Shown piece after piece: positions 43,586 to 55,462 of a stretch of DNA of 64,000 bases. Origin of the DNA: Lachnospiraceae bacterium YSB2008 (lineage in GTDB: Bacteria; Bacillota; Clostridia; Lachnospirales; Lachnospiraceae); contig JHWR01000016.1 of NCBI GenBank assembly GCA_000687655.1, positions 1-64,000 on the forward strand, read 5' to 3'. The notes beneath the pieces were generated by a model. It saw only the letters and a list, made by a program, of their open reading frames with translations. It did not search any database and was not told the origin of the DNA. Every line of letters begins with the position of its first letter. The first letter of the stretch is position 1. The position numbers were made by a program, and so were the translations under genes.

Positions 43586-44695
43586 TTATTTTGACTCATC
43601 AGGAAGATAACGTACGTATATGTCATCCCCAACCTTTTCAAAACTATAAATCATGAGTTTCGGAGAATCCTCTACTTCACTCACTCCATCCCCACGTATA
43701 GGACCTGGTGCAGTATTTCCTCCAAAAAGCTTTGGAGCTATAAAGGTTCGCACTTCATTTACGTATCCGGCTCTGAGGATTGACCAGTTAAGAGTACCTC
43801 CACCTTCCAGAAGTATACTGTCTATATTCATCTCTCCCAGTCTTTTCATCAATTCATTTATAGATATCTCTCCATCTTCTTCAGGAAGAAACATGAGTTC
43901 GATGTCAGCAGTCAGAAGTGCATTCATCTTTCCTTTAGCTGTTTCCTTGCTCGATTCAAGAGTAGCAACAATAGTTCTGTATTTTCCGGAAGTAGCAACA
44001 ATCTCTGAATCAAGAGGTATACTGAGATGCGAATCACAAATGATCCTTATCGGATTTCTTCCACCCTCAATACGGCAGTTAAGGAGCGGATTATCAGCGA
44101 GAACCGTTCCTATACCACACATGATAGCTGTGAATTCATTTCTCCATGAATGCGTGAGCTTCCTGCTCTCCTCACAGGAAATCCATTTACTTTTCCCTTC
44201 TGAAGTAGCAATCTTTCCATCTGCCGTCATGGCATATTTCATAACAACGTAAGGAAGTCCTGTAGTAATGTAGTAAAAGAAAACCTGATTGAGTTTATCA
44301 CATTCATCCTTCATGAAGTGAGTAACAACTTCTATTCCTTTCTCTCTAAGTCTTGCATATCCCTTGCCCGATACAAGTGGATTAGGATCATCAGAACCAA
44401 CATAAACTCTCTTAATCTTATGCTCGATTATCGCATCCACACATGGCGGCTGCTTCCCAGTGTGACAGCATGGCTCAAGAGTTACATACATCTCAGCACC
44501 TTCTGCATCCTCAGTAAGATGCTCAAATGCATCCCTCTCCGCATGCAAGTCACCATACTTCCTATGGTATCCTTCCCCGATGACCCTGCCATCCTTTACT
44601 ATAACCGCCCCAACTAGTGGATTCGGGTTCACCGCCCCAATCCCCTTCTTAGCAAGTTCTATGGCTCTTTCCATATATTTTCTGTCAAATGACAT
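43586..44695 (-). CDS. ribD: Bifunctional diaminohydroxyphosphoribosylaminopyrimidine deaminase / reductase, 369 aa
   Basis: The N-terminal deaminase domain holds the zinc site HAERDAFEH and PCCHTGKQPPC, and the C-terminal reductase domain starts near residue 150 (YVVMKYAMTADGKIA) and has SILLEGGGTLNWSI. It performs the second and third steps from GTP. GAGGG lies upstream of the ATG. It is the first gene of the operon, preceded by a palindromic element, a terminator and an FMN riboswitch. Confidence 0.97.
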   Translation of the reverse strand: MSFDRKYMERAIELAKKGIGAVNPNPLVGAVIVKDGRVIGEGYHRKYGDLHAERDAFEHLTEDAEGAEMYVTLEPCCHTGKQPPCVDAIIEHKIKRVYVGSDDPNPLVSGKGYARLREKGIEVVTHFMKDECDKLNQVFFYYITTGLPYVVMKYAMTADGKIATSEGKSKWISCEESRKLTHSWRNEFTAIMCGIGTVLADNPLLNCRIEGGRNPIRIICDSHLSIPLDSEIVATSGKYRTIVATLESSKETAKGKMNALLTADIELMFLPEEDGEISINELMKRLGEMNIDSILLEGGGTLNWSILRAGYVNEVRTFIAPKLFGGNTAPGPIRGDGVSEVEDSPKLMIYSFEKVGDDIYVRYLPDESK

Positions 44696-44797
44696 ATATC
44701 TGCCCTCTTCAATTCAGAAGTGTTTCTATATTTTGATTACAGTTGAATTATACATATACCCTGAAAAGCACTAATAAGCCAAGGTTATTTATTTACA

Positions 44798-45030
44798 GAA
44801 TGATTATGCATTCATTAACTCGAGAAAACCCTCTGAGGCCGTCGGTGCTTAACGAATAGACACAAAGTGTCTATGAGTTTAGCATCCGCTATGTGCAGTT
44901 GCACCGAACGAAGTGAGGTGGACTAACCGCACAGCGCATCGCACGGAGTGCGATTCTATATGCGCGAAGCGTCCTTATAGCGGAGCCGAGAGGCGTGTTT
45001 TCGAGGGTTAAATGAAATGCATACTCATTC
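44798..45030. repeat. Palindromic structured element, copy A
   Basis: A 233-base imperfect palindrome: outer arms 44798-44825 and 45002-45030 are complementary with a few bulges. Inside are a long hairpin (GGTGCT at 44844 with AGCATC at 44881, ATAGACAC at 44856 with GTGTCTAT at 44867), GTGCA/TGCAC at 44893, and a multi-hairpin core with CGCACGGAGTGCG. The core matches copy B at 55224-55462 closely, while the outer arms differ in sequence but still pair. It lies between the riboswitch terminator and ribD and contains no credible gene. Confidence 0.85.
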
Positions 45031-45031
45031 G

Positions 45032-45066
45032 TTAAAAAATCAAAAGCCCTGGAATAAATCCAGGGC
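45032..45066 (-). terminator. Riboswitch-controlled terminator of the rib operon leader
   Basis: GCCCTGG and CCAGGGC arms (45066-45046 on the minus strand) followed by TTTTGATTTTTT. It lies about 35 bases downstream of the FMN aptamer and is the likely off-state terminator. Confidence 0.85.
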
Positions 45067-45099
45067 CATAATAAGCATACCAGCAGAAAATATATTCTG

Positions 45100-45209
45100 C
45101 CATCACTTCTCCCATCCAGACTTTACTGTCGGTTATGGAATCTCACCATATCAGCCGTTAGGCTCGCGGACTTTACCGCCGGTCGGGAATCTCACCCTGC
45201 CCTGAAGTA
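45100..45209 (-). promoter_or_regulatory. FMN riboswitch (RFN element)
   Basis: The minus strand carries the conserved RFN blocks in order: CTTCAGGGCAGGGTGAGATT, CCCGACCGGCGGTAAAGTCC, GCGAGCC, GGTGAGATTCC, ACCGACAGTAAAGTCTGGATG and GGAGAAG. It binds FMN and, with the terminator at 45032-45066, should switch off the rib operon when FMN is plentiful. Confidence 0.97.
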
Positions 45210-45231
45210 TATATTAAAATTTGTTTGATAA

Positions 45232-47946
45232 CTATTTATCACTCTTGCCGATTGAAAGGAATCCACCTTCATTTGCTTTAAGAAGAACTGAAAGACCGAT
45301 ATTCTTTCTGGACTCTTCTGTTGCAACGTAAATCTCACCGGTTTCAACAAGTGACTTAGCTATACTTGTTACCTCTTCCTTGAACTGCATCATCTGACGT
45401 CTGTCCTTAGATGAGAGCTTGAAGAGATACTGGTTCTTTGAGCTTATAAGAAGAATACTGAATGAATGTATTCCTTCCTTCTGCTCTCTCATACCCGAAC
45501 CGATCATACGGCTGTTTGCGATGATAATTTCAGCATTCTCATCAGGAAGATACTCTGAAAGGATCAGCTTATAAATCTTAAGGTAATCGTCCTCAGAATT
45601 AACAGCTATAGGAAGTTCAGCAACCGCAAATTCAATAACTGAATCCGCAAGCTTGATTGTACCTCCATCATCATCGATAGTCGCATTACATGACTTAGGA
45701 ACTATAATTCTGAAGAACTTATTCTCTATAACCTTCTGATCTATCGTAGGCTCCTTGATAACAAGATCAGGATATGCCTTCTCAAGCTTATTCATGGAGA
45801 TAACAGCTGAATCTTCACCTGTCTCGGCAGTCTCCATAAGTGTTGCATAAAGCTCTGCTATAGCAGGAGTCTGGTAACCAACCATCTCAACTACCTTATC
45901 AACGGCAGGTACATAAGACATTGCAGCGTTCTCTATATAGAGCTTGATCATCTCTTCCTTGGAAGCACCCTTCTTCTCTTTGTAACGGATTACCTTGAAG
46001 AGGTCCTTCTTATCGAAACCATCATAGTGCTGATCATAAGCTTTCTCAAAGAATTTGATACTCTTTCTGTCTTCTTCAGGAGTCTGTGCCTCAAACTCTT
46101 CTCTCTCATATATCTTAGCAAGCTCATATGATGCCTGAACTGCGCCAAGTCCGAGAGCTTCCTGGAAAGCTTTTTCTATCTCGTAATTGTTTGCGATATA
46201 GAATATCTGCTGCTGTTTCATAAGTGCAACCTTAAGTGCAGTAGCACCGGAACCGGCCTGAACAGCTCTGTCCCATTTCTCAACAGCCTGCTGGAGATCC
46301 TCACCGTGAAGATCCTCGATATCCTTGATATAAGCATCTGCTTCAGGTATACCATTCTGAGATGCTCTCTTGAAGTACGAAAGAGCTTTGATACCCTCTC
46401 TCTTCTGATGTATAAGACCATAGTAATAGAATCTTCCGAGATAGAATGGAACTCTCTTATGTCCAAGTCTCTCAGCATTCTCATACCAGTTAAGAGCCTT
46501 CATATAGTCCTTAAGCTGCTGGTCATAAATATTACCAATAAGGAATGCAAGATCAGGATCCTTCGTTGCTTCGAAGAGCTGCTTAGCATAACTTATAGTC
46601 TTCTCTATATCTCGATAAGGTGAATCCTCATCAAAGTAAAGATCGATAAGAAGGTAGCTGGCCTTGATGCTTCCAAGCTTAAGAGCCTGCTTAGCAGCTG
46701 TCATGGCACCTTCGTAATCCTCAAGGTAGTAACAATACAGTGCCTCACTGTAGTACTGATTGTCCTTCCTGTTAAGGCTGGCATCACTTACTCTGGTAGG
46801 ATTAACAAATGCAAATGAGTTTGCAGTTTCGAAAATGATCTCTTCGTACTGCTCTATGATCTCCATGGTAGCACACACGAATCTCATACATGCAAGACGA
46901 CGTCCCTGATAGAACGCAAATGTAACGATACCTTTATTCATCTCTTTATGATAGAAGGTTGTTACTATACCGTCTGCATACTCAGTAATATACGGTTTTA
47001 ACTGAAGCTCTTCATCGAAAGCTTCGTTGCAGTATCTAAGGTAATTCTCAAGTGTCTTCTTGGAATCCTTTGGAATACTGTCATAAGAAACATACATTTC
47101 AAAGTCTTTGTATGTCATGCTAGGAGCATAATACTCTTCGCCTGTTTCTTCATTTATAGTCTTTATCCAGTCTTTAGGGAGCTTATGTATATAACCATCA
47201 ACCTGGTTATGAACATATGTATACTGATACTGAAGACTTGCAGGGTCAATAACCTTGAATCGAGGTTCCTTACCCTTTTCTTTTCTCTTCTCGGATATCT
47301 CTGTATAGAGCTTATCCTTCTCTTCGAATTCTATACTGTCTGTATGCTGTGATGCGTACTCAACTCGGTCATAAGCGGTCATAGCGGTCTGATCACCGGT
47401 CTCTGCCAGCTTCTTGTACCACATCATGGCCTTCTCATAATCTACAGGTATGATGAGTTCGCTCTTATTACCAAACTGATCAACTCTTGAAAGTCCGTTC
47501 TCATATATAGAACCGAGATTCATATATGCTGACTTGATGCCTGCTGTTGCAGCCTTCTCAAAGAAAGCAACTGCCTTGGAGAAATTCTGATCTTCAAGGA
47601 ACAGCTTGGCAACCTTATATATCATTTCACCGTCATTTGTCTGTGTAGTATACTTCTCGTAGTATTTTGCGGCTTTGTTAAGATTCTTCTCTGTTGTGGC
47701 ATTCTTGTACTTTCCAGTCTCATAGAATTCGCCAAGTATCTTAAGAGAATCAGTACCGAAATCCTTATAAGTAGGATCCATAAGTCCTATATCGGCTATG
47801 CTCTCAAGTATCTCAACAGCTTCATCACCGTTGGCATTTTCCATGAGGTTCATAGCCTTCTCAAACTGTAATTCAGTTGTACTTTTTGTGGATTTCTTTT
47901 TACCAAATATAGGAAGTTTACTCTTCAGATTATCAAAAAATCCCAT
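45232..47946 (-). CDS. Large TPR/Sel1-repeat protein of unknown function, 904 aa
   Basis: Most of the protein is built of Sel1/TPR-like helical pairs, for example SKAVAFFEKAATAGIKSAYMNLGSIYENG (shown by its pattern around residues 120-150), YMKALNWYENAERLGHKRVPF and GIKALSYFKRASQNGIPEA. Two beta-rich insertions lie near residues 230-390 and 740-880 and resemble each other loosely (FFRIIVPK, EYLPDENAEI). The N-terminus is short, basic and aromatic (GFFDNLKSKLPIFGKKK), perhaps a membrane-binding helix. No signal peptide. It probably acts as a scaffold; partners are unknown. The stop codon lies 22 bases before the riboswitch. Confidence 0.75.
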   Translation of the reverse strand: MGFFDNLKSKLPIFGKKKSTKSTTELQFEKAMNLMENANGDEAVEILESIADIGLMDPTYKDFGTDSLKILGEFYETGKYKNATTEKNLNKAAKYYEKYTTQTNDGEMIYKVAKLFLEDQNFSKAVAFFEKAATAGIKSAYMNLGSIYENGLSRVDQFGNKSELIIPVDYEKAMMWYKKLAETGDQTAMTAYDRVEYASQHTDSIEFEEKDKLYTEISEKRKEKGKEPRFKVIDPASLQYQYTYVHNQVDGYIHKLPKDWIKTINEETGEEYYAPSMTYKDFEMYVSYDSIPKDSKKTLENYLRYCNEAFDEELQLKPYITEYADGIVTTFYHKEMNKGIVTFAFYQGRRLACMRFVCATMEIIEQYEEIIFETANSFAFVNPTRVSDASLNRKDNQYYSEALYCYYLEDYEGAMTAAKQALKLGSIKASYLLIDLYFDEDSPYRDIEKTISYAKQLFEATKDPDLAFLIGNIYDQQLKDYMKALNWYENAERLGHKRVPFYLGRFYYYGLIHQKREGIKALSYFKRASQNGIPEADAYIKDIEDLHGEDLQQAVEKWDRAVQAGSGATALKVALMKQQQIFYIANNYEIEKAFQEALGLGAVQASYELAKIYEREEFEAQTPEEDRKSIKFFEKAYDQHYDGFDKKDLFKVIRYKEKKGASKEEMIKLYIENAAMSYVPAVDKVVEMVGYQTPAIAELYATLMETAETGEDSAVISMNKLEKAYPDLVIKEPTIDQKVIENKFFRIIVPKSCNATIDDDGGTIKLADSVIEFAVAELPIAVNSEDDYLKIYKLILSEYLPDENAEIIIANSRMIGSGMREQKEGIHSFSILLISSKNQYLFKLSSKDRRQMMQFKEEVTSIAKSLVETGEIYVATEESRKNIGLSVLLKANEGGFLSIGKSDK

Positions 47947-48064
47947 ATAAGTTTCCTCCGGGTTTCACCTGATTAGAGATTTACCCATATAGTTTATCAC
48001 AATCAAATATGCTATGCAACGAAAACTAGCTGATAAACCACTATTTTTGTAGCATTTTCAGGCA

Positions 48065-48322
48065 TTAGTTCATTGAAGTCATGTATGCTACTATTTCTGA
48101 AGCAGCAGCTTCTTCATCAGAGCCTTCTGCCTCAACTGATATCTCCTCATCATTGCAGATTCCAAGGCTCATCATACCCATGATACTCTTGGCATTTACC
48201 TTCTTGTCACCTGATACAAGAAAGATACGGCTGTCAAATTTACTTGCAAGCTGTACAACTACTGCTACCGGTCTTGCTTCAGCAAACTCTTTTAATTTAA
48301 CAGTGAAATTCTTCGTAACCAT
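48065..48322 (-). CDS. crh: Crh-like HPr paralogue (Glu15, Ser46), 85 aa
   Basis: The fold is that of HPr, but the PTS phosphorylation residue His15 is replaced by Glu (FAEARP in place of LHARP), while the regulatory Ser46 is kept in [12 protein letters not shown]. In B. subtilis Crh, which has Gln15, only Ser46 is phosphorylated, by HprK, and the product serves as co-repressor for CcpA. HprK is encoded 4 kb upstream in the same locus, and the order whiA-crh matches B. subtilis. The ATG at 48322 has AGGAG eight bases upstream and gives residue numbers 15 and 46 exactly. A sugar-transport role is not possible without His15. Confidence 0.9.
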
Positions 48323-48366
48323 TAAAAACACTCCTCATTTTAATTAATATATATAAAAATGTATCG

Positions 48367-49263
48367 TTACATTTTCATTCGCATCTTATCTGCAATTTCA
48401 CGGATCCTTCTGATTCTGTGATTGACCCCCGACTTTCCGAGCGGAGGATTCATGGACTGTCCCAGATCTTTGAGAGAAAGGTAAGGGAACTGAAGTCTCA
48501 TCTCTGCAAGCTCTCTGAGTGTATCAGGAAGAACTGAAAGGCCTGCATTTTTCTCAATATATTCGATATCCTCAATATCCTTGGCTGCCGCATTTGCAAC
48601 CTTGTTCATATTGGCAGTATCACAATTGACCTCTCTGTTTACGGAGTTTCTGATCTCTTTCAGAATCCTTACATTTTCAAATGTCATGAGAGCGCTTCCG
48701 GCGCCCATAACACCCAGAGCATCAACTATTGAATCACTATCCTTGAGATAGACTATATATCCGTCCCTTCTTTTGGCGATTTTGCCCGGAAGAGACATAT
48801 CCTTCAGTATTCCGCCGAGAAATTCAGCTTTCCTGCTGTTACTCTGGCTGAATTCCAGGTGATAGCTCTTATTCGGATCAGTTACAGATCCGGCCGCAAG
48901 AAAGCAGCCTTTAAGAAATGCGCTTTTGCAACAGGTATTCTGAAGAACTATCCTGTCGAGATAGATACTTTCTTCTTCAAACCTGAGTTTAAGCTTCTCT
49001 GTTATCTTCTGAACGAGCAAGGCATCTGTTATCTTCTCTTTCCCTGAAGAAATATCCGATTCCTGATAATCTTCCTCAAAGAGCGATCTCATAAGTCTGA
49101 TATAAAGCTTCTGAAGAAGTTCGTCCTTTAGGCGTATTACAAGAGTATCGTCGGACATCGATCCATTTGTAAAAACAATTCCTGCAAGGAAAGCTATACG
49201 ACAATGTACGGCATGTGGAATACGTCCGCTTATCTCAAGTCTTATATCTGTTGAATAAGACAT
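48367..49263 (-). CDS. whiA: Sporulation/cell-cycle transcription regulator WhiA homologue, 298 aa
   Basis: The N-terminal part has the LAGLIDADG-like fold (CCKSAFLKGCFLAAGSVTDP) and the C-terminal part the helix-turn-helix ending LSLKDLGQSMNPPLGKSGVNHR. WhiA binds DNA and affects division and chromosome segregation in Gram-positives. The start codon overlaps the rapZ stop by one base. YvcK, which separates the two genes in Bacillus, is not present here. Confidence 0.95.
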   Translation of the reverse strand: MSYSTDIRLEISGRIPHAVHCRIAFLAGIVFTNGSMSDDTLVIRLKDELLQKLYIRLMRSLFEEDYQESDISSGKEKITDALLVQKITEKLKLRFEEESIYLDRIVLQNTCCKSAFLKGCFLAAGSVTDPNKSYHLEFSQSNSRKAEFLGGILKDMSLPGKIAKRRDGYIVYLKDSDSIVDALGVMGAGSALMTFENVRILKEIRNSVNREVNCDTANMNKVANAAAKDIEDIEYIEKNAGLSVLPDTLRELAEMRLQFPYLSLKDLGQSMNPPLGKSGVNHRIRRIREIADKMRMKM

Positions 49264-50147
49264 TATATCTCTCCCTTGACGTACTTATCATAGCTTATAT
49301 CTCTATGATATTTCCTAAATGAAAACGGCAGTTCAGAAAGCCTGTCATACATGATATTTGTGACAGCTACCGATCTGTGGCGTCCGCCCGTGCAGCCAAT
49401 AGCTATCGTAAGATGGTGCTTACCCTCTTTATCAACATATTCCGGAATAAGGAATTTGAGTAGATCATATAGTTTATCAATAAAAACATGCGATTCTTCG
49501 CTGTTCATAACGAACTCTTTGATATTGTCATCGTTCCCCGTAAATGGACGGAGCTGTTCATCATAATACGGATTCGGCATGAATCGCACATCAAATACTA
49601 TATCTGCATCTACAGGGATACCGAACTTATATCCAAATGAAACGAGAGATACAATAATATTCGAATAGCCTTCGCCTTTGACAAATATCTTGTTAATTTC
49701 TTTCTTAAGCTCTCTTGTAAGAAGCCCTGTTGTATCAATGATATAATCCGCAGAATCCTTAAGGAAAGCAACTCTGTCACGTTCCTTCCTTATGGCATCT
49801 TCTATCTCACCGGTTCCATTTGCAAGCGGATGCTCACGCCTTGTTTCTTTAAAACGTCTTATCAGATTCTCTGTACTTGCGTCGAGGAACAGTATCTCAT
49901 ACTCTATTCCACTGGACTTGATATTTGAAAGAACAACGCTCAGATTGTCGAGCTCTTTGCCACTTCTGATATCTATTCCGATGGCAACCTTATCGTAGGT
50001 AAAACTGCTGTCCTGTATCATATCTGCCAGCTTATCCAGAAGAAGCACAGGCAGGTTATCTACACAGAAGTAACCCAGATCTTCCATATTATTGAGTGCC
50101 GTTGATTTGCCGGCACCGCTCATCCCCGTAACAATTACAATTCTCAT
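49263..50147 (-). CDS. rapZ: RapZ/YvcJ-type P-loop nucleotide-binding protein, 294 aa
   Basis: The Walker A motif GMSGAGKST lies at residues 8-16, and the C-terminal domain has the signature IGCTGGRHRSVAV. The family hydrolyses nucleotides; in E. coli RapZ guides decay of a small RNA, in Bacillus the role is less clear. It overlaps whiA and follows murB by 53 bases. Confidence 0.96.
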   Translation of the reverse strand: MRIVIVTGMSGAGKSTALNNMEDLGYFCVDNLPVLLLDKLADMIQDSSFTYDKVAIGIDIRSGKELDNLSVVLSNIKSSGIEYEILFLDASTENLIRRFKETRREHPLANGTGEIEDAIRKERDRVAFLKDSADYIIDTTGLLTRELKKEINKIFVKGEGYSNIIVSLVSFGYKFGIPVDADIVFDVRFMPNPYYDEQLRPFTGNDDNIKEFVMNSEESHVFIDKLYDLLKFLIPEYVDKEGKHHLTIAIGCTGGRHRSVAVTNIMYDRLSELPFSFRKYHRDISYDKYVKGEI

Positions 50148-50200
50148 ATTCTAACCCCTAGACATTAAAGCCATCTGAACCAGATATTTATTCAACCTGA

Positions 50201-51070
50201 TTATTCAAATACACCCAGCATCTTCACCTCAGGTTCCAGCTTAACTCCGAACTTTTCAAATACTGTATCCTGAACATGAAGTATGAGTTCATATATATCC
50301 TTAGCTGTAGCATCTCCTGAATTGATTATGAATCCGGCATGTTTTTCAGAAACAGTTGCTCCTCCTATGCTATAGCCCTTAAGCTCTGCATCCATAATGA
50401 GCTTTCCTGCGAAGTATCCTTCAGGTCTCTTGAATGTGGATCCTGCAGAAGGAAACTCTACCGGTTGCTTTTCATTTCTCTTTGTCTTAAGCTCCTTCAT
50501 AAGATTCTCTATAGCGTCTTTGTTACCATGACTGAGTATCAGTTTGGCACCTGTAACTATATAATTCTTTTCAGGAACGATACTATGTCTGTATGAGAAA
50601 TCCATATCCTTACCGGATATCCTCTTCTCTCTTCCTCTGTCATCTATAACATCAACGTATTCGATGACATCCTTCATCTCTCCACCATATGCACCGGCGT
50701 TCATGGTAACTGCACCACCAAGCGTTCCCGGTATTCCCGAAGCAAACTCAAATCCTGTCATGGAATTATCTTTTGCTGCATTTGCTATAGTCGAGAGAAA
50801 TGCTCCGGCCTCTGCATAAAGTCCGTCAGCCATCACATCAATCCTGCTCATATTTTTAGAGATCTCGATAATCGAGCCTCTGAATCCATCATCGGAAACC
50901 AGGAGGTTACTTCCATTTCCGATTATGTAATAATCTGTATCTGTATCTTCACACATTTCGATAATCCTTACGATATCCTTTGAATTCTCAACAAGGTAAA
51001 GATCATCGGCATTTCCTCCGACACGGAAGGTTGTATGAAGCTTCATCGGTTCATTTGATAAATGTATCAT
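50201..51070 (-). CDS. murB: UDP-N-acetylenolpyruvoylglucosamine reductase, 289 aa
   Basis: An FAD enzyme that makes UDP-N-acetylmuramate for peptidoglycan. The FAD-binding part has TTFRVGGNADDL and GSNLLVSDDGF. GIPGTLGGAVTMNAGAYGGE precedes the catalytic Ser in SAGSTFKRP and the C-terminal Glu in LEPEVKMLG. The length is normal. It lies between glcK, whose terminator separates them, and rapZ. Confidence 0.96.
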   Translation of the reverse strand: MIHLSNEPMKLHTTFRVGGNADDLYLVENSKDIVRIIEMCEDTDTDYYIIGNGSNLLVSDDGFRGSIIEISKNMSRIDVMADGLYAEAGAFLSTIANAAKDNSMTGFEFASGIPGTLGGAVTMNAGAYGGEMKDVIEYVDVIDDRGREKRISGKDMDFSYRHSIVPEKNYIVTGAKLILSHGNKDAIENLMKELKTKRNEKQPVEFPSAGSTFKRPEGYFAGKLIMDAELKGYSIGGATVSEKHAGFIINSGDATAKDIYELILHVQDTVFEKFGVKLEPEVKMLGVFE

Positions 51071-51123
51071 TTTCCGTTAATTCCCCATAAGATAAAACTT
51101 AACAGTTGTAAACACTAACAAAA

Positions 51124-51162
51124 CAAAAAAATTCTACCGCATAATATACTACACGATAGAAT
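51124..51162 (-). terminator. Terminator after glcK
   Basis: ATTCTAtCG and CGgTAGAAT arms on the minus strand followed by seven T residues, 70 bases downstream of the glcK stop codon. Confidence 0.65.
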
Positions 51163-51233
51163 CTTTTTGTTCAATGAGACAAAGTAACGAACAATTTGCC
51201 AATTTGCAAACTTTTTTGTTGATTTGTAACATA

Positions 51234-52175
51234 TTACGAATTAAGCACTGCGCAAGCCCCGCCGTACATACCTGCATCATTTCCAAGAGTTGCAAGCTTA
51301 AAGAGTGTATCCCTGCATGCGTGGAATGCATACTCTTTGAAATACTTGGCTGTAACATCGAGAATGATCTCTCCTGCTCTGCTGACTCCGCCACCGATAA
51401 CGAATACTTCAGGATCAGCAACACATGAAACCTGTGCAAGCGCATATCCGAGCCACTTTCCAAAGTCTTCAACTACTGAAAGTGCAAGCGCATCCCCAGC
51501 CTTTGCAGCATCGAAAACATCCTTAGCTGTAACCTCATCGAGATCACGAAGTGTAGATGCATCACTTGTTCCAGCAAGTGCCTTCTTGGCAAGTCTTACA
51601 ACACCTGTTGCAGATGCATACTGCTCAAGACAGCCCTTCTTGCCACAACCGCAAGTAGCCTCTTCTGCCGGATTAACTGTGAAATGACCGATCTCTCCGC
51701 CTGCACCATTAGTACCTGCGATCATCTTTCCATTTACGATTATTCCGCCGCCTACGCCTGTTCCGAGAGTAACCATTACCTGGTTAAGATAGCCTTTACC
51801 GCCACCCATCCACATCTCGCCGAGGGCAGCCATATTAGCATCATTACCAACTTTTACAGGAACATCTGTAAGTCCTGAAAGCTCATCTGCTGCATTGAAG
51901 ATACCCCAGCCGAGGTTTACGCATTTGATGACAGTTCCATCTTCTCTTACAGGTCCCGGAACACCCATACCGATTCCGCGGATATCTTTTGTAGTAAGGC
52001 CTTTTTCATTCATTCTTACTTTAATTGAACCTGCTATATCACCGAGGATATGGCGTCCGCCTTCACTGGTTCTTGTTTCAATCTCCCACTTCTCAAGAAG
52101 TGTACCCTTTGTATCGAAGAGTCCGATCTTTACGGTTGTTCCACCTATATCAACACCAAATAAATAATCACTCAT
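51234..52175 (-). CDS. glcK: ROK-family glucokinase, 313 aa
   Basis: Phosphorylates glucose with ATP. It shows the N-terminal phosphate loop GVDIGGTTVKIGLFD, the sugar-binding GAGGEIGHFTV and the ROK zinc site CGCGKKGCLEQYAS, plus GTGVGGGII. Its place between hprK and murB suggests joint expression with the carbon-control kinase. Start ATG follows AAGGAG. Confidence 0.94.
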   Translation of the reverse strand: MSDYLFGVDIGGTTVKIGLFDTKGTLLEKWEIETRTSEGGRHILGDIAGSIKVRMNEKGLTTKDIRGIGMGVPGPVREDGTVIKCVNLGWGIFNAADELSGLTDVPVKVGNDANMAALGEMWMGGGKGYLNQVMVTLGTGVGGGIIVNGKMIAGTNGAGGEIGHFTVNPAEEATCGCGKKGCLEQYASATGVVRLAKKALAGTSDASTLRDLDEVTAKDVFDAAKAGDALALSVVEDFGKWLGYALAQVSCVADPEVFVIGGGVSRAGEIILDVTAKYFKEYAFHACRDTLFKLATLGNDAGMYGGACAVLNS

Positions 52176-52212
52176 GATTCATTTCTCCTTTTTAATTCTT
52201 AGTTATAGTATC

Positions 52213-52255
52213 ACTGAGCAGATTACGTCCATCAATCGCTGAACCATCTGCTCAG
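52213..52255 (-). other. Stem-loop overlapping the end of hprK
   Basis: Perfect ten-base arms CTGAGCAGAT and ATCTGCTCAG overlap the hprK stop codon at 52252. No T run follows, so it is either a weak terminator or a processing/stability hairpin between hprK and glcK. Confidence 0.45.
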
Positions 52256-53193
52256 TTACTCTTGTTAATCATGTTTTGAGTAACCCTGTTATAGAGTTCC
52301 TGAGCGGCATTATATCCCATCTTCTTCTGTCTGTGGTTGACAGCAGCCGACTCAACGATGATAGCCATATTACGTCCCGGTCTGATAGGGATATTATGAC
52401 TTGTAACCTTATTTCCGAGGAATTCTACATACGAATCCTCAAGGCCGAGTCTGTCATAGTTAGCATCCTTATCCCACTCCTCAAGCTTAAGCACCAGGTC
52501 GATCTGCTGACTTGTCTTAACACATTCAACACCGTACATGGTCTTAACATCTATGATACCTATACCACGAAGCTCTATGAAATGTCTCGTTATGGCAGGT
52601 GATGTACCTATAAGCTGTTCATCAGATATCTTCTTTATCTCAACAACATCATCTGCAACAAGTCTGTGACCTCTCTTGATAAGCTCAAGAGCAGCCTCAC
52701 TCTTTCCTATACCGCTGTCGCCCATGATAAGTACACCTTCACCGAATACATCCAGAAGAACCGCATGTACTGAAATTCTCGGTGCAAGCTCCTCATGCAG
52801 ATATCTAACAGTTTCATGAACGAAAGAACTTGTAGTCGACGCACTTGAAAGTATAGGAATACCATGCTTAAGTCCTGCTTCAATGATAAAATCATAAGGC
52901 TCTATATCCCTGCAGAAAACAAGACACGGTATCGGAAAACTGAAGAGCCTGTCGAATATTTCGATATTCTCTTCCCTGGTGTGCATATCAGCAAGATATG
53001 CATTCTCTACATTTCCACATATCTGAACTCTGGCCGTATCAAAATGCTCAAAGAAGCCCGCCAGCTGAAGCGCCGGTCTGTTGATATCGGGATCTGTAAT
53101 GAATATCTTATCCGTATCAATCTCCGGAGTATAATTCTTGAGATCCAGCTTCTTGATAAGATCAGTCAGGACAACATTATATTCGTCTGTCAA
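52252..53193 (-). CDS. hprK: HPr kinase/phosphorylase, 313 aa
   Basis: The sensor enzyme that phosphorylates or dephosphorylates Ser46 of HPr and Crh. The Walker A motif MGDSGIGKSE lies near residue 156, followed by LVADDVVEI and the HprK signature ELRGIGIIDV. The start is a TTG at 53193, with GGGGGTGA seven bases upstream. It heads the locus hprK-glcK-murB-rapZ-whiA-crh. Confidence 0.97.
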   Translation of the reverse strand: MTDEYNVVLTDLIKKLDLKNYTPEIDTDKIFITDPDINRPALQLAGFFEHFDTARVQICGNVENAYLADMHTREENIEIFDRLFSFPIPCLVFCRDIEPYDFIIEAGLKHGIPILSSASTTSSFVHETVRYLHEELAPRISVHAVLLDVFGEGVLIMGDSGIGKSEAALELIKRGHRLVADDVVEIKKISDEQLIGTSPAITRHFIELRGIGIIDVKTMYGVECVKTSQQIDLVLKLEEWDKDANYDRLGLEDSYVEFLGNKVTSHNIPIRPGRNMAIIVESAAVNHRQKKMGYNAAQELYNRVTQNMINKSN

Positions 53194-53288
53194 CCTCTAT
53201 CACCCCCATAAAATTATGCAATCATTCTATCACAGAGAGCCCATCTATACAAGCTATCCATAAGCACCAGTTGCATAAAAACCATTAT

Positions 53289-53317
53289 TTGATATATTGG
53301 TAACAATACTATACAAT
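53289..53317 (+). promoter_or_regulatory. Promoter of uvrC
   Basis: TTGATA (53289-53294), a 17-base spacer and TACAAT (53312-53317), about 50 bases before the ATG. Confidence 0.7.
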
Positions 53318-53369
53318 AAGGGCTAGATATTCAGACACTCTAACATTAAAGGCAATCACAGGAGTCAAA

Positions 53370-55190
53370 ATGTCCGAACTTTTCAACATTGAAGAAGAAC
53401 TTGATAAGCTTCCGAAGAAACCCGGTGTCTACATCATGCGAAATGAGACCGGGGGTATTCTTTACGTGGGCAAAGCGACTAACCTGCATAACAGAGTCCG
53501 TCAGTATTTTCGTTCAGGGCACGGACACAACAACTCTCCAAAGATCATTAAGATGGTATCTCAGATATCATACTTCGAATACATAATTACAAAATCTGAA
53601 ATCGAAGCTCTTGTTCTTGAGTGCAACCTTATAAAAGAGCATCGTCCGAAATATAACACCCTTATGACTGATGATAAGGGCTATCCATATATCCGTGTAA
53701 CCACCTACGAAGACTACCCTCGTATCATGATGAGTCATCAAATGAAACGTGATAAGTCTCTCTACTTCGGTCCTTTTACAGACAGAAAAGCCGTAAAGGA
53801 CATCATACTGCTTATAAGAAAACTTTTTCTTCTCCGTTCCTGCAGTATCGCACTTCCGGAAAAGATTGGTAAGGATCGTCCGTGTTTATATGCTCAGATT
53901 GGTCAGTGCTGCGCACCATGCAGCGGAAATGTATCGAAAGACGAATACATGTCCCGTGTAAATGATGCCATATCCTTCCTTAACGGCAACCACTCGGATA
54001 TAGCAAAGAAACTGAAGGAGTCCATGAACCGTGCTTCTGAAGAACTTGAATTTGAAGAAGCTGCTAAATACAGAGATCTTCTCACAAGTATAGAACACAT
54101 CATGGAAAAGCAGCGTGTTTCAAAAACCTCCGAAGAAGATCGTGATGTTATAGCTATCGCTCGAAATGACGAAGATATTGTTGTATCTATATTCTTCATC
54201 AGAGAAGGTAATCTTATCGGCCGTGAGAATCATCATATGAAAGCTGACAGCTCTGATTCTGATGGCGAGATAATTAATGAATTTATCAAGCAGTATTATA
54301 CAGGCACTCCTTATATACCTAAAGAAATCATAACGAAAGCTCCCGTGGCAGATTCGGAACTTCTGAGAGATTATCTTGCTGAAAAGTCCGGCGTATCGAT
54401 ACATTTTCTTGTACCGCAAAAGGGAGAAAAAGCCCACCTCCTAAAGCTGGCTGAAGATAATGCCAGACTCGTTCTTGCGCAGGATATAGAACGTATAAAG
54501 AGACTTGAAAAACGCACGAAGGGTGCATGTGACGAGATTGCTGAAATTCTCGGAATCGAGAAAGCTGACCGGATGGAAGCCTTCGATATTTCTAATATTT
54601 CAGGTTACCACAGCGTAGCTTCAATGGTAGTCTTCGAAGAAGGAAAACCAAAGAAAAACTCTTACAGAAAATTCAGGCTTCGTACAGTTGAAGGCCCGGA
54701 TGATTACGCTTCCATGAAAGAAGTTCTAACCAGGAGATACACTGATGAAAAACTCGGTCCGCTTCCTGATGTTCTGATGATGGACGGCGGTAAAGGACAG
54801 GTTAATATCGCCACAATGGTTCTTGACAGCCTCGGTATAGATATACCTGTCTGCGGAATGGTTAAGGATGATAACCATCGCACCCGCGGGCTTTATTACA
54901 ACAACAAAGAGGTAACATTCAAGCCCGGCAGCGAAGCCATCCACATGATCACTTCACTCCAGGATGAAACACACCGTTTCGCCATCACCTATCACAGAGA
55001 ACTTCGCAGCAAAGAACAAGTCCGTTCCATACTTGATGACATCCCCGGTGTCGGCCCGAAACGCCGCGCCGCCCTCCTCCTCCACTTCCGCGACATCGAA
55101 AGTATAAAGAGCGCAGATATCAATGCCCTCCTCGAGGTAGAAGGAATAACCGAACCCATTGCCAACTCAATATACGACTTCTTTCATTAA
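53370..55190 (+). CDS. uvrC: Excinuclease ABC subunit C, 606 aa
   Basis: Makes both incisions in nucleotide excision repair. Domains: GIY-YIG nuclease (KKPGVYIMRNETGGILYVGKA, shown near residues 17-37), a cysteine-rich iron-sulfur region (CLYAQIGQCCAPC), a UVR motif near 205, the RNase H-like nuclease (AFDISNISG, VLMMDGGKGQ) and a C-terminal double helix-hairpin-helix (DDIPGVGPKRRAALL). AGGAG lies five bases before the ATG. It is a single-gene plus-strand transcript. Confidence 0.98.
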   Translation: MSELFNIEEELDKLPKKPGVYIMRNETGGILYVGKATNLHNRVRQYFRSGHGHNNSPKIIKMVSQISYFEYIITKSEIEALVLECNLIKEHRPKYNTLMTDDKGYPYIRVTTYEDYPRIMMSHQMKRDKSLYFGPFTDRKAVKDIILLIRKLFLLRSCSIALPEKIGKDRPCLYAQIGQCCAPCSGNVSKDEYMSRVNDAISFLNGNHSDIAKKLKESMNRASEELEFEEAAKYRDLLTSIEHIMEKQRVSKTSEEDRDVIAIARNDEDIVVSIFFIREGNLIGRENHHMKADSSDSDGEIINEFIKQYYTGTPYIPKEIITKAPVADSELLRDYLAEKSGVSIHFLVPQKGEKAHLLKLAEDNARLVLAQDIERIKRLEKRTKGACDEIAEILGIEKADRMEAFDISNISGYHSVASMVVFEEGKPKKNSYRKFRLRTVEGPDDYASMKEVLTRRYTDEKLGPLPDVLMMDGGKGQVNIATMVLDSLGIDIPVCGMVKDDNHRTRGLYYNNKEVTFKPGSEAIHMITSLQDETHRFAITYHRELRSKEQVRSILDDIPGVGPKRRAALLLHFRDIESIKSADINALLEVEGITEPIANSIYDFFH

Positions 55191-55222
55191 TAACCAGTTG
55201 GAACCATTTCCAATTGGTTATT
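55191..55222 (+). terminator. Terminator of uvrC
   Basis: AATAACCAgTTGGAA and its complement form a stem with a four-base loop immediately after the stop codon, followed by TTCTTAGTTT. Confidence 0.7.
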
Positions 55223-55223
55223 C

Positions 55224-55462
55224 TTAGTTTACAGATTGAATACTGACATATACACGAGAAACCCTTGGAACACGTCAGTACTTAACGAGTAGACTTATTC
55301 TACGAGTTTAGTACTGTTACGTGCAGTTGCACCGAACGAAGTGAGGTGGACTAACCGCGTAGCGCATCGCACGAAGTGCGATTCTACATGCGCGAAGCGT
55401 CCTCAGAGCGGAGCCGAGAGGCGCGTTTTCGAGGCATATATACAATGCTAAATCGTAACTAA
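55224..55462. repeat. Palindromic structured element, copy B
   Basis: A 239-base imperfect palindrome with outer arms 55224-55261 and 55426-55462. Inner pairs are CAGTACT at 55276 with AGTACTG at 55310, and GTAGA at 55289 with TCTAC at 55299; then GTGCA/TGCAC at 55321 and GCGCAT/ATGCGC around CGCACGAAGTGCG. The core from 55321 to about 55434 is nearly the same as copy A (44893-45009), while the hairpins before it differ in sequence but keep pairing. It lies between two convergent terminators and holds no credible gene. Confidence 0.85.

Follow-up and report, generated by a model that had tools for sequence, protein, structure and literature searches.

Introduction

REPINs are non-autonomous extragenic hairpins with conserved ends and a spacer of free sequence that stays paired through compensatory changes, and they occur in clusters, as described in the excerpted text of PMC3116915. 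Miniature inverted-repeat elements (MITEs) of the ERIC, RUP and Correia type are about 100–200 bp long, intergenic and without a protein product; a long stem forms by pairing of their 5′ and 3′ parts, and for most of them the transposase is unknown, according to a portion of PMC2229807. The same portion describes YPAL/RU-2 of Yersinia, whose target sites span or adjoin a dyad symmetry (PMC2229807).

The element reported here, two copies of which lie in a window of 64,000 nucleotides from Lachnospiraceae bacterium YSB2008, can be compared with these systems. It resembles the REPIN/REP-RAYT system in its variable yet paired arms, its extragenic position and its clustering, and differs in possessing a conserved branched core with a GNRA hairpin and in having different ends. 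Like the ERIC/RUP/Correia type it is small, non-coding and intergenic with a long stem formed by 5′/3′ pairing; unlike them it lacks terminal inverted repeats of conserved sequence apart from the short tips, shows no target duplication by eye, is spread over 129 sampled genera of one family, and displays strong compensatory covariation. It recalls YPAL/RU-2 in that its phage copy occupies a position at which a small hairpin is present in some relatives (judged by eye), whereas the host group is another one and target duplications were not seen by eye.

The attC sites of integrons are folded single strands with conserved bulges and a variable stem sequence. The present element may likewise be described as a folded strand with bulges and a variable stem; in contrast, its copies are isolated and no cassette arrays were noticed. 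The best explanation for the element, to which we give slightly better than even chances, is that it belongs to a family of mobile DNA hairpins that are non-autonomous and behave in the manner of REPIN or ERIC.

Two copies of the element in the window

Copy A (44795–45032, plus strand) is a long form bounded by the tips ACAG (44795–44798) and CGT (45030–45032), and consists of two arms, the core, and a 78-bp insert (44898–44975, plus strand) in the loop of the second core hairpin. Copy B (55231–55456, plus strand) is also a long form, with ACAG at 55231–55234, CGT at 55454–55456, poorly paired arms, the core, and a 78-bp insert at 55326–55403 of the plus strand. The first-pass annotation had placed two palindromic copies here, and the tips now fix their ends. 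The core model R2, a covariance model from 80 sequences, matches copy A at 44818–44932 (60.7 bits) and copy B at 55251–55355 (55.3 bits), and finds no further copies within the window. The folds of both copies beat 200 of 200 dinucleotide shuffles, with z of −7.15 (plus) and −6.92 (minus) for A, and −3.80 (plus) and −3.54 (minus) for B.

Copy A lies between an FMN riboswitch (45100–45213, minus strand, 116.1 bits) and the start of ribD (43586–44695, minus strand; TIGR00326, 338.9 bits, over the cut-off), on the strand opposite to both. Upstream of copy B is uvrC (53370–55190, plus strand; TIGR00194, 615.7 bits, over the cut-off).

Copies A and B have a common block of 112 bp with 94% identity. 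This agrees with the shared core of about 115 bases noticed at first, but the block is mostly the 78-bp insert, which has a constant length in the four long forms (A, B, L003 and L015) and is missing from all five short forms compared. The conserved core of the family is the hairpin pair flanking the insert, not the insert itself. The flanking hairpins quoted earlier as differing in sequence yet paired are present in both copies. Self-complementary outer arms had also been ascribed to both; the arms of A pair well (score 17), and those of B only partly (score 8), where the median with foreign arms is 5.

Inserts of several kinds occupy this one loop, namely the 78-bp insert of this genome and those of L116 and L123. 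Pieces of the 78-bp insert, which are mini-hairpins with GNA or TTC loops, were also seen outside the element near contig ends and in spacers beside tRNA-like sequence (L004 1501–1559, L005 1501–1559, and around 1501 in L011 and L014).

Distribution of the family

A covariance model, R1, was built from nine copies, eight from the genome of the window and one from G016, with the insert removed from four. In this genome R1 gives 19 rows, two of which are opposite strands of a single copy, so that 18 places are represented. They comprise 12 full short forms, three long forms, two 88-nt forms that lack the inner hairpins, and one truncated form. R2 adds one place, C1:250009–250127, making at least 19. 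The covariance-model search of relatives, proposed in the first-pass annotation as the check, finds many carriers: R1 matches 30 of the 61 genomes of the genus (E 0.1), and R2 matches 143 of 397 Lachnospiraceae genomes in 129 of 334 genera (E 0.001). Since scoring stopped at nine candidates in each genome, the copy numbers are lower bounds. In a set of 391 genomes from the class, R2 matches eight, all of them Lachnospiraceae and the present genome included. A pattern scan of named genomes returned 99 stretches; the 80 that were listed all bear Lachnospiraceae or Eubacterium sp. in their titles. As far as tested, the family is restricted to Lachnospiraceae.

The element is mostly about 150–250 bp in size, and two or three copies in a single gene gap occur. 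In G059, three copies with similar-looking arms share one gap between parA-like and argS-like frames (L109 4888–7059). In G002, a full copy was seen by eye amid three deletion forms in one gap (L087 1240–1880); the deletion forms retain the arms and the GNRA hairpin, and have lost the inner hairpin. Minimal forms of 88 nt, with tips and arms and without both core hairpins, occur in L031 and in L033 (1501–1588). A separate short repeat in L054 (793–841) matches dozens of sites across four related genomes, and may be of the ATCCTGAACGAAGTGAAGGAT type found in L119.

The Rfam search returned riboswitches, one tRNA and sub-threshold matches, none of them on any element, in keeping with the initial view that the family is not a recognised one. 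Searches of plasmid and phage records with one family member each gave no match, and no published name was found in the literature searched. Thousands of candidate structured RNAs, some palindromic, have been predicted in human microbiomes according to the excerpted text of PMC8040213, and the present family may be among them, unnamed.

Anatomy and covariation of the core

From the outside to the inside, the element comprises the ACAG/CGT tips, arms about 25 bp long, the short GRGAC/GTCTC helix, a two-part hairpin, and a small GNRA hairpin. The tips, 5′-ACAG…CGT-3′, carry a bulged A. Of 144 copies, 35 have the strict bulge C(A)G/CG (24 of the 100 from the genus and 11 of the 44 from outside it) and 109 lack it, while the next-commonest type of bulge is found nine times; these counts come from direct matching, which replaced a count by minimum-energy folds (21 of 146). 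The GRGAC/GTCTC helix often adjoins a tandem G.A. In our own reading of the alignments, the two-part hairpin contains a conserved CTTA/TTAG with a U.U mismatch, a tandem G.A and a two-base bulge. The loop of the small hairpin is GNRA in 68 of 80 rows; seven more are shifted in the alignment, four read GCCA and one AAGA.

Of 84 cores selected, the core alignment, A4, holds 80; length excluded L116 and both L062 cores, and L108 was left out by oversight. Several of the counts in this report omit duplicates, one match on the reverse strand, one copy that is truncated, and copies that run short of sequence at contig ends. Over 80 cores and 23 pairs, 89.6% of the cells are paired (72.6% when shuffled), and 339 cells are changed on both sides, compared with 120.6 in shuffled alignments and 22 to 112 in slid controls. 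The covariation score is 0.510 versus 0.220 shuffled, and further pair types number 50 versus 45.1, a value reached by eight of 500 shuffles. By helix, the paired cells amount to 56.3% (arm-proximal), 84.6%, 99.4%, 97.8% and 85.8%. These values are to be read with the structure partly derived from the same alignment and with model-found rows leaning towards it. The covariation lies far above both kinds of control, which supports the selection on structure suggested at the outset.

Wobble pairs in the core favor G.U over A.C (79 versus 23), driven by two pairs (27:0 and 34:1); three core pairs are reversed (0:9, 1:5 and 1:4). The plus-strand G.U at the two driving pairs, together with the strong core covariation, the GNRA loop and the conserved U.U and tandem G.A internal loops, would fit a multi-copy family of structured non-coding RNAs, whose individual copies would be transcribed and function as RNA, with pairing the only demand on the arms. 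Constraint at orthologous places and an orthologue with compensatory arm changes, both given below, point the same way. We regard such an RNA family as possible but improbable, and the arms and the gene context supply the evidence against it.

Arms of free sequence that keep pairing

In 129 of 144 copies the own 3′ arm outscores every one of 60 foreign 3′ arms drawn as a sample; the genus copies among the 144 had been found by a model that includes the arm pairs. For the 44 family copies the search used the core model, in which three arm-proximal pairs are included; in 32 of the 44 the own arm outscores all 43 others, with a median of 12 versus 5. Copies with arms that do not pair had been named beforehand as a sign against the proposal. 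Such copies exist (16 of 144 score below 10, copy B included), but most pair. In the six G052 copies the cores are 93% identical on average (least 85%), and the outer arms 56–58%, for a shuffled baseline of 49%. In the group L117/L119/L352 the core is nearly unchanged, and the arms of one genome are altered with pairing preserved.

The arms are nearly pure Watson–Crick: G.T pairs number 16 against 1506 matches, and seven against 528 in the 44 core-model copies. This scarcity of wobble speaks against the RNA family, and suggests that arm pairing may be kept or renewed at the DNA level, perhaps by hairpin-templated copying, more than by slow compensation of the RNA type. A strand bias of the arm wobbles (G.T:A.C 42:10, p 9e-6) shrinks as the stretch is trimmed, to 30:7 at 27 nt (p 0.0002) and 16:7 at 24 nt (p 0.09), and is 7:10 in the 44 core-model copies. 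We do not rely on it, since the initial sets were collected with a model in which G.U is permitted on that strand.

Copies in one genome thus have a common core and nearly unrelated Watson–Crick arms, and close orthologues mostly keep theirs (four of five pairs, by eye). This leads to a second alternative, a family-wide mobile element in which an RNA-like fold of single-stranded DNA would be the recognition unit and the arms would be rewritten by hairpin-templated copying whenever the element moves. We consider it rather doubtful; if true, the enzyme driving recombination would have to be something other than RAYT.

Position relative to genes

Among 103 copies, 39 lie between co-directional genes in the sense orientation (+E+) and 36 in antisense (−E−); 17 are in convergent gaps (+E−), five in divergent gaps (−E+), and six have a neighbor missing. 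The even orientation to the genes argues against an RNA family. Promoter-like sites (score at least 9) upstream of the element, in 33 of 99 cases versus 25, 18 and 26 in control stretches, show a small apparent excess. T-runs follow the 3′ end on the plus strand in nine of 99 copies and are equally frequent at the other end (nine of 99), so that the element lacks the T-run enrichment of intrinsic terminators.

The excess of convergent over divergent gaps raises the possibility of a 3′-UTR structure domesticated from a repeat, serving as a bidirectional terminator, a transcript stabilizer or a processing site. The element is within 30 bases of the stop codon in 45 of 73 co-directional gaps, and of the start in 26, with median distances of 18 bases to the stop and 43 to the start; small hairpins seen by eye at the equivalent place in several related phages also agree with this reading. 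However, the stop side is the nearer one in only 44 of the 73 gaps (29 of 36 antisense copies and 15 of 37 sense copies), and the notion that the element sits mostly right behind stop codons was rejected for this reason. The missing T-run, the fact that a terminator at copy A would silence ribD, and an elaborate core that is superfluous for a terminator further make a 3′-UTR role unlikely.

No neighbor recurs widely: the largest group of similar neighboring frames comprises five loci, and the others at most four, several of them orthologous gaps. Some distant genomes use one and the same gene gap for the element (L038/L065/L095, L084/L087/L101, L053/L083 and L060/L123), and in L038/L065/L095, L053/L083 and L060/L123 the forms differ although their orientation mostly agrees; the chance expectation was only guessed, and no conclusion is drawn.

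Probable mobility and conservation in place

Downstream of uvrC, 40 stretches from relatives (out of 54 other genomes with a match, one stretch being only 189 bases) contain one element by R2, behind another reading frame, and a conserved place at uvrC was therefore rejected. One gene gap holds the element in G017 and G008 and not in G055, where the empty site is too diverged for an exact junction. A phage contig carries a copy (L358 2467–2595) on the opposite strand from an HK97-type major capsid gene and directly behind it. It is the sole R2 match among 80 capsid-related stretches, although the other 79 may have lost it, and some of them break off shortly after the capsid gene. Several of 12 phage stretches inspected by eye carry a small hairpin behind the capsid gene. 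An origin of the arms from target palindromes was rejected, as the G055 site has no palindrome and the hairpins of the phage relatives are unlike the arms by eye.

Other copies stay in place. In five orthologous pairs the element is 89–99% identical, the 60 bases on its 5′ side 38–88% and those on its 3′ side 77–95%; examples are 95% versus 63% (5′) and 85% (3′), and 98% versus 75 and 77%. In L094/L265 the 3′ side (95%) is more conserved than the element (90%). Identity of the element exceeds that of the coding flanks in three of the five pairs. That some copies are more conserved than the adjacent intergenic DNA speaks for a function in place.

Judged against classical MITEs, the element is small, lacks coding capacity, is interspersed in many copies, and has filled and empty sites (G017/G008 versus G055, with the junction inexact, and one of 80 in the phages). 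Terminal inverted repeats of conserved sequence were not found, as the outer arms of the G052 copies are near the shuffled baseline and only ACAG/CGT recurs. The flanks of the 18 places in this genome, inspected by eye with an exact empty site lacking, contain no clear target-site duplication. No transposase or integrase was found with the element, the genome-wide search having covered Y1 only, and among the reading frames listed for seven regions with neighboring copies, inspected by eye for a transposase, none looked like a common mobility gene between copies.

A family of mobile, non-autonomous hairpins would account for the dispersal, the even orientation, the lineage-specific sets, the tips and the phage case. 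One strand folds as a unit with bulged-A tips, paired arms of free sequence and the conserved core; a recombinase or transposase acting in trans may recognize the tips and core of this strand in its folded, single-stranded state, inserting copies between genes in either orientation. The spread was probably aided by an enzyme, of which none was found here. Counted against mobile hairpins are the strict tip in a minority of copies, the conservation at orthologous places, and the GNRA loops and core G.U pairs, which fit RNA equally.

A REP/REPIN-type repeat moved by RAYT, the Y1 tyrosine transposase, shares the general logic of a hairpin, a variable spacer paired with compensatory changes, an extragenic position and clusters, as the excerpted PMC3116915 has it, but is very improbable. 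We do not class the element with REPIN, since neither test for a RAYT link supported one: Y1 (PF01797, E 1e-5) is present in seven of 12 element-rich genomes and without a match in five, two of which are given as 100% complete, and 21 Y1 stretches contain no R2 element (E 0.1).

Significance of the family

Lachnospiraceae are common gut and rumen bacteria, and 143 of the 397 genomes sampled carry an element that has neither an Rfam match nor a name in the literature searched. The 80 aligned cores, the core model, the polymorphic sites and the phage copy are material for finding the mobilizing enzyme. The element also opens the question of how a repeat keeps its palindrome while its sequence turns over.
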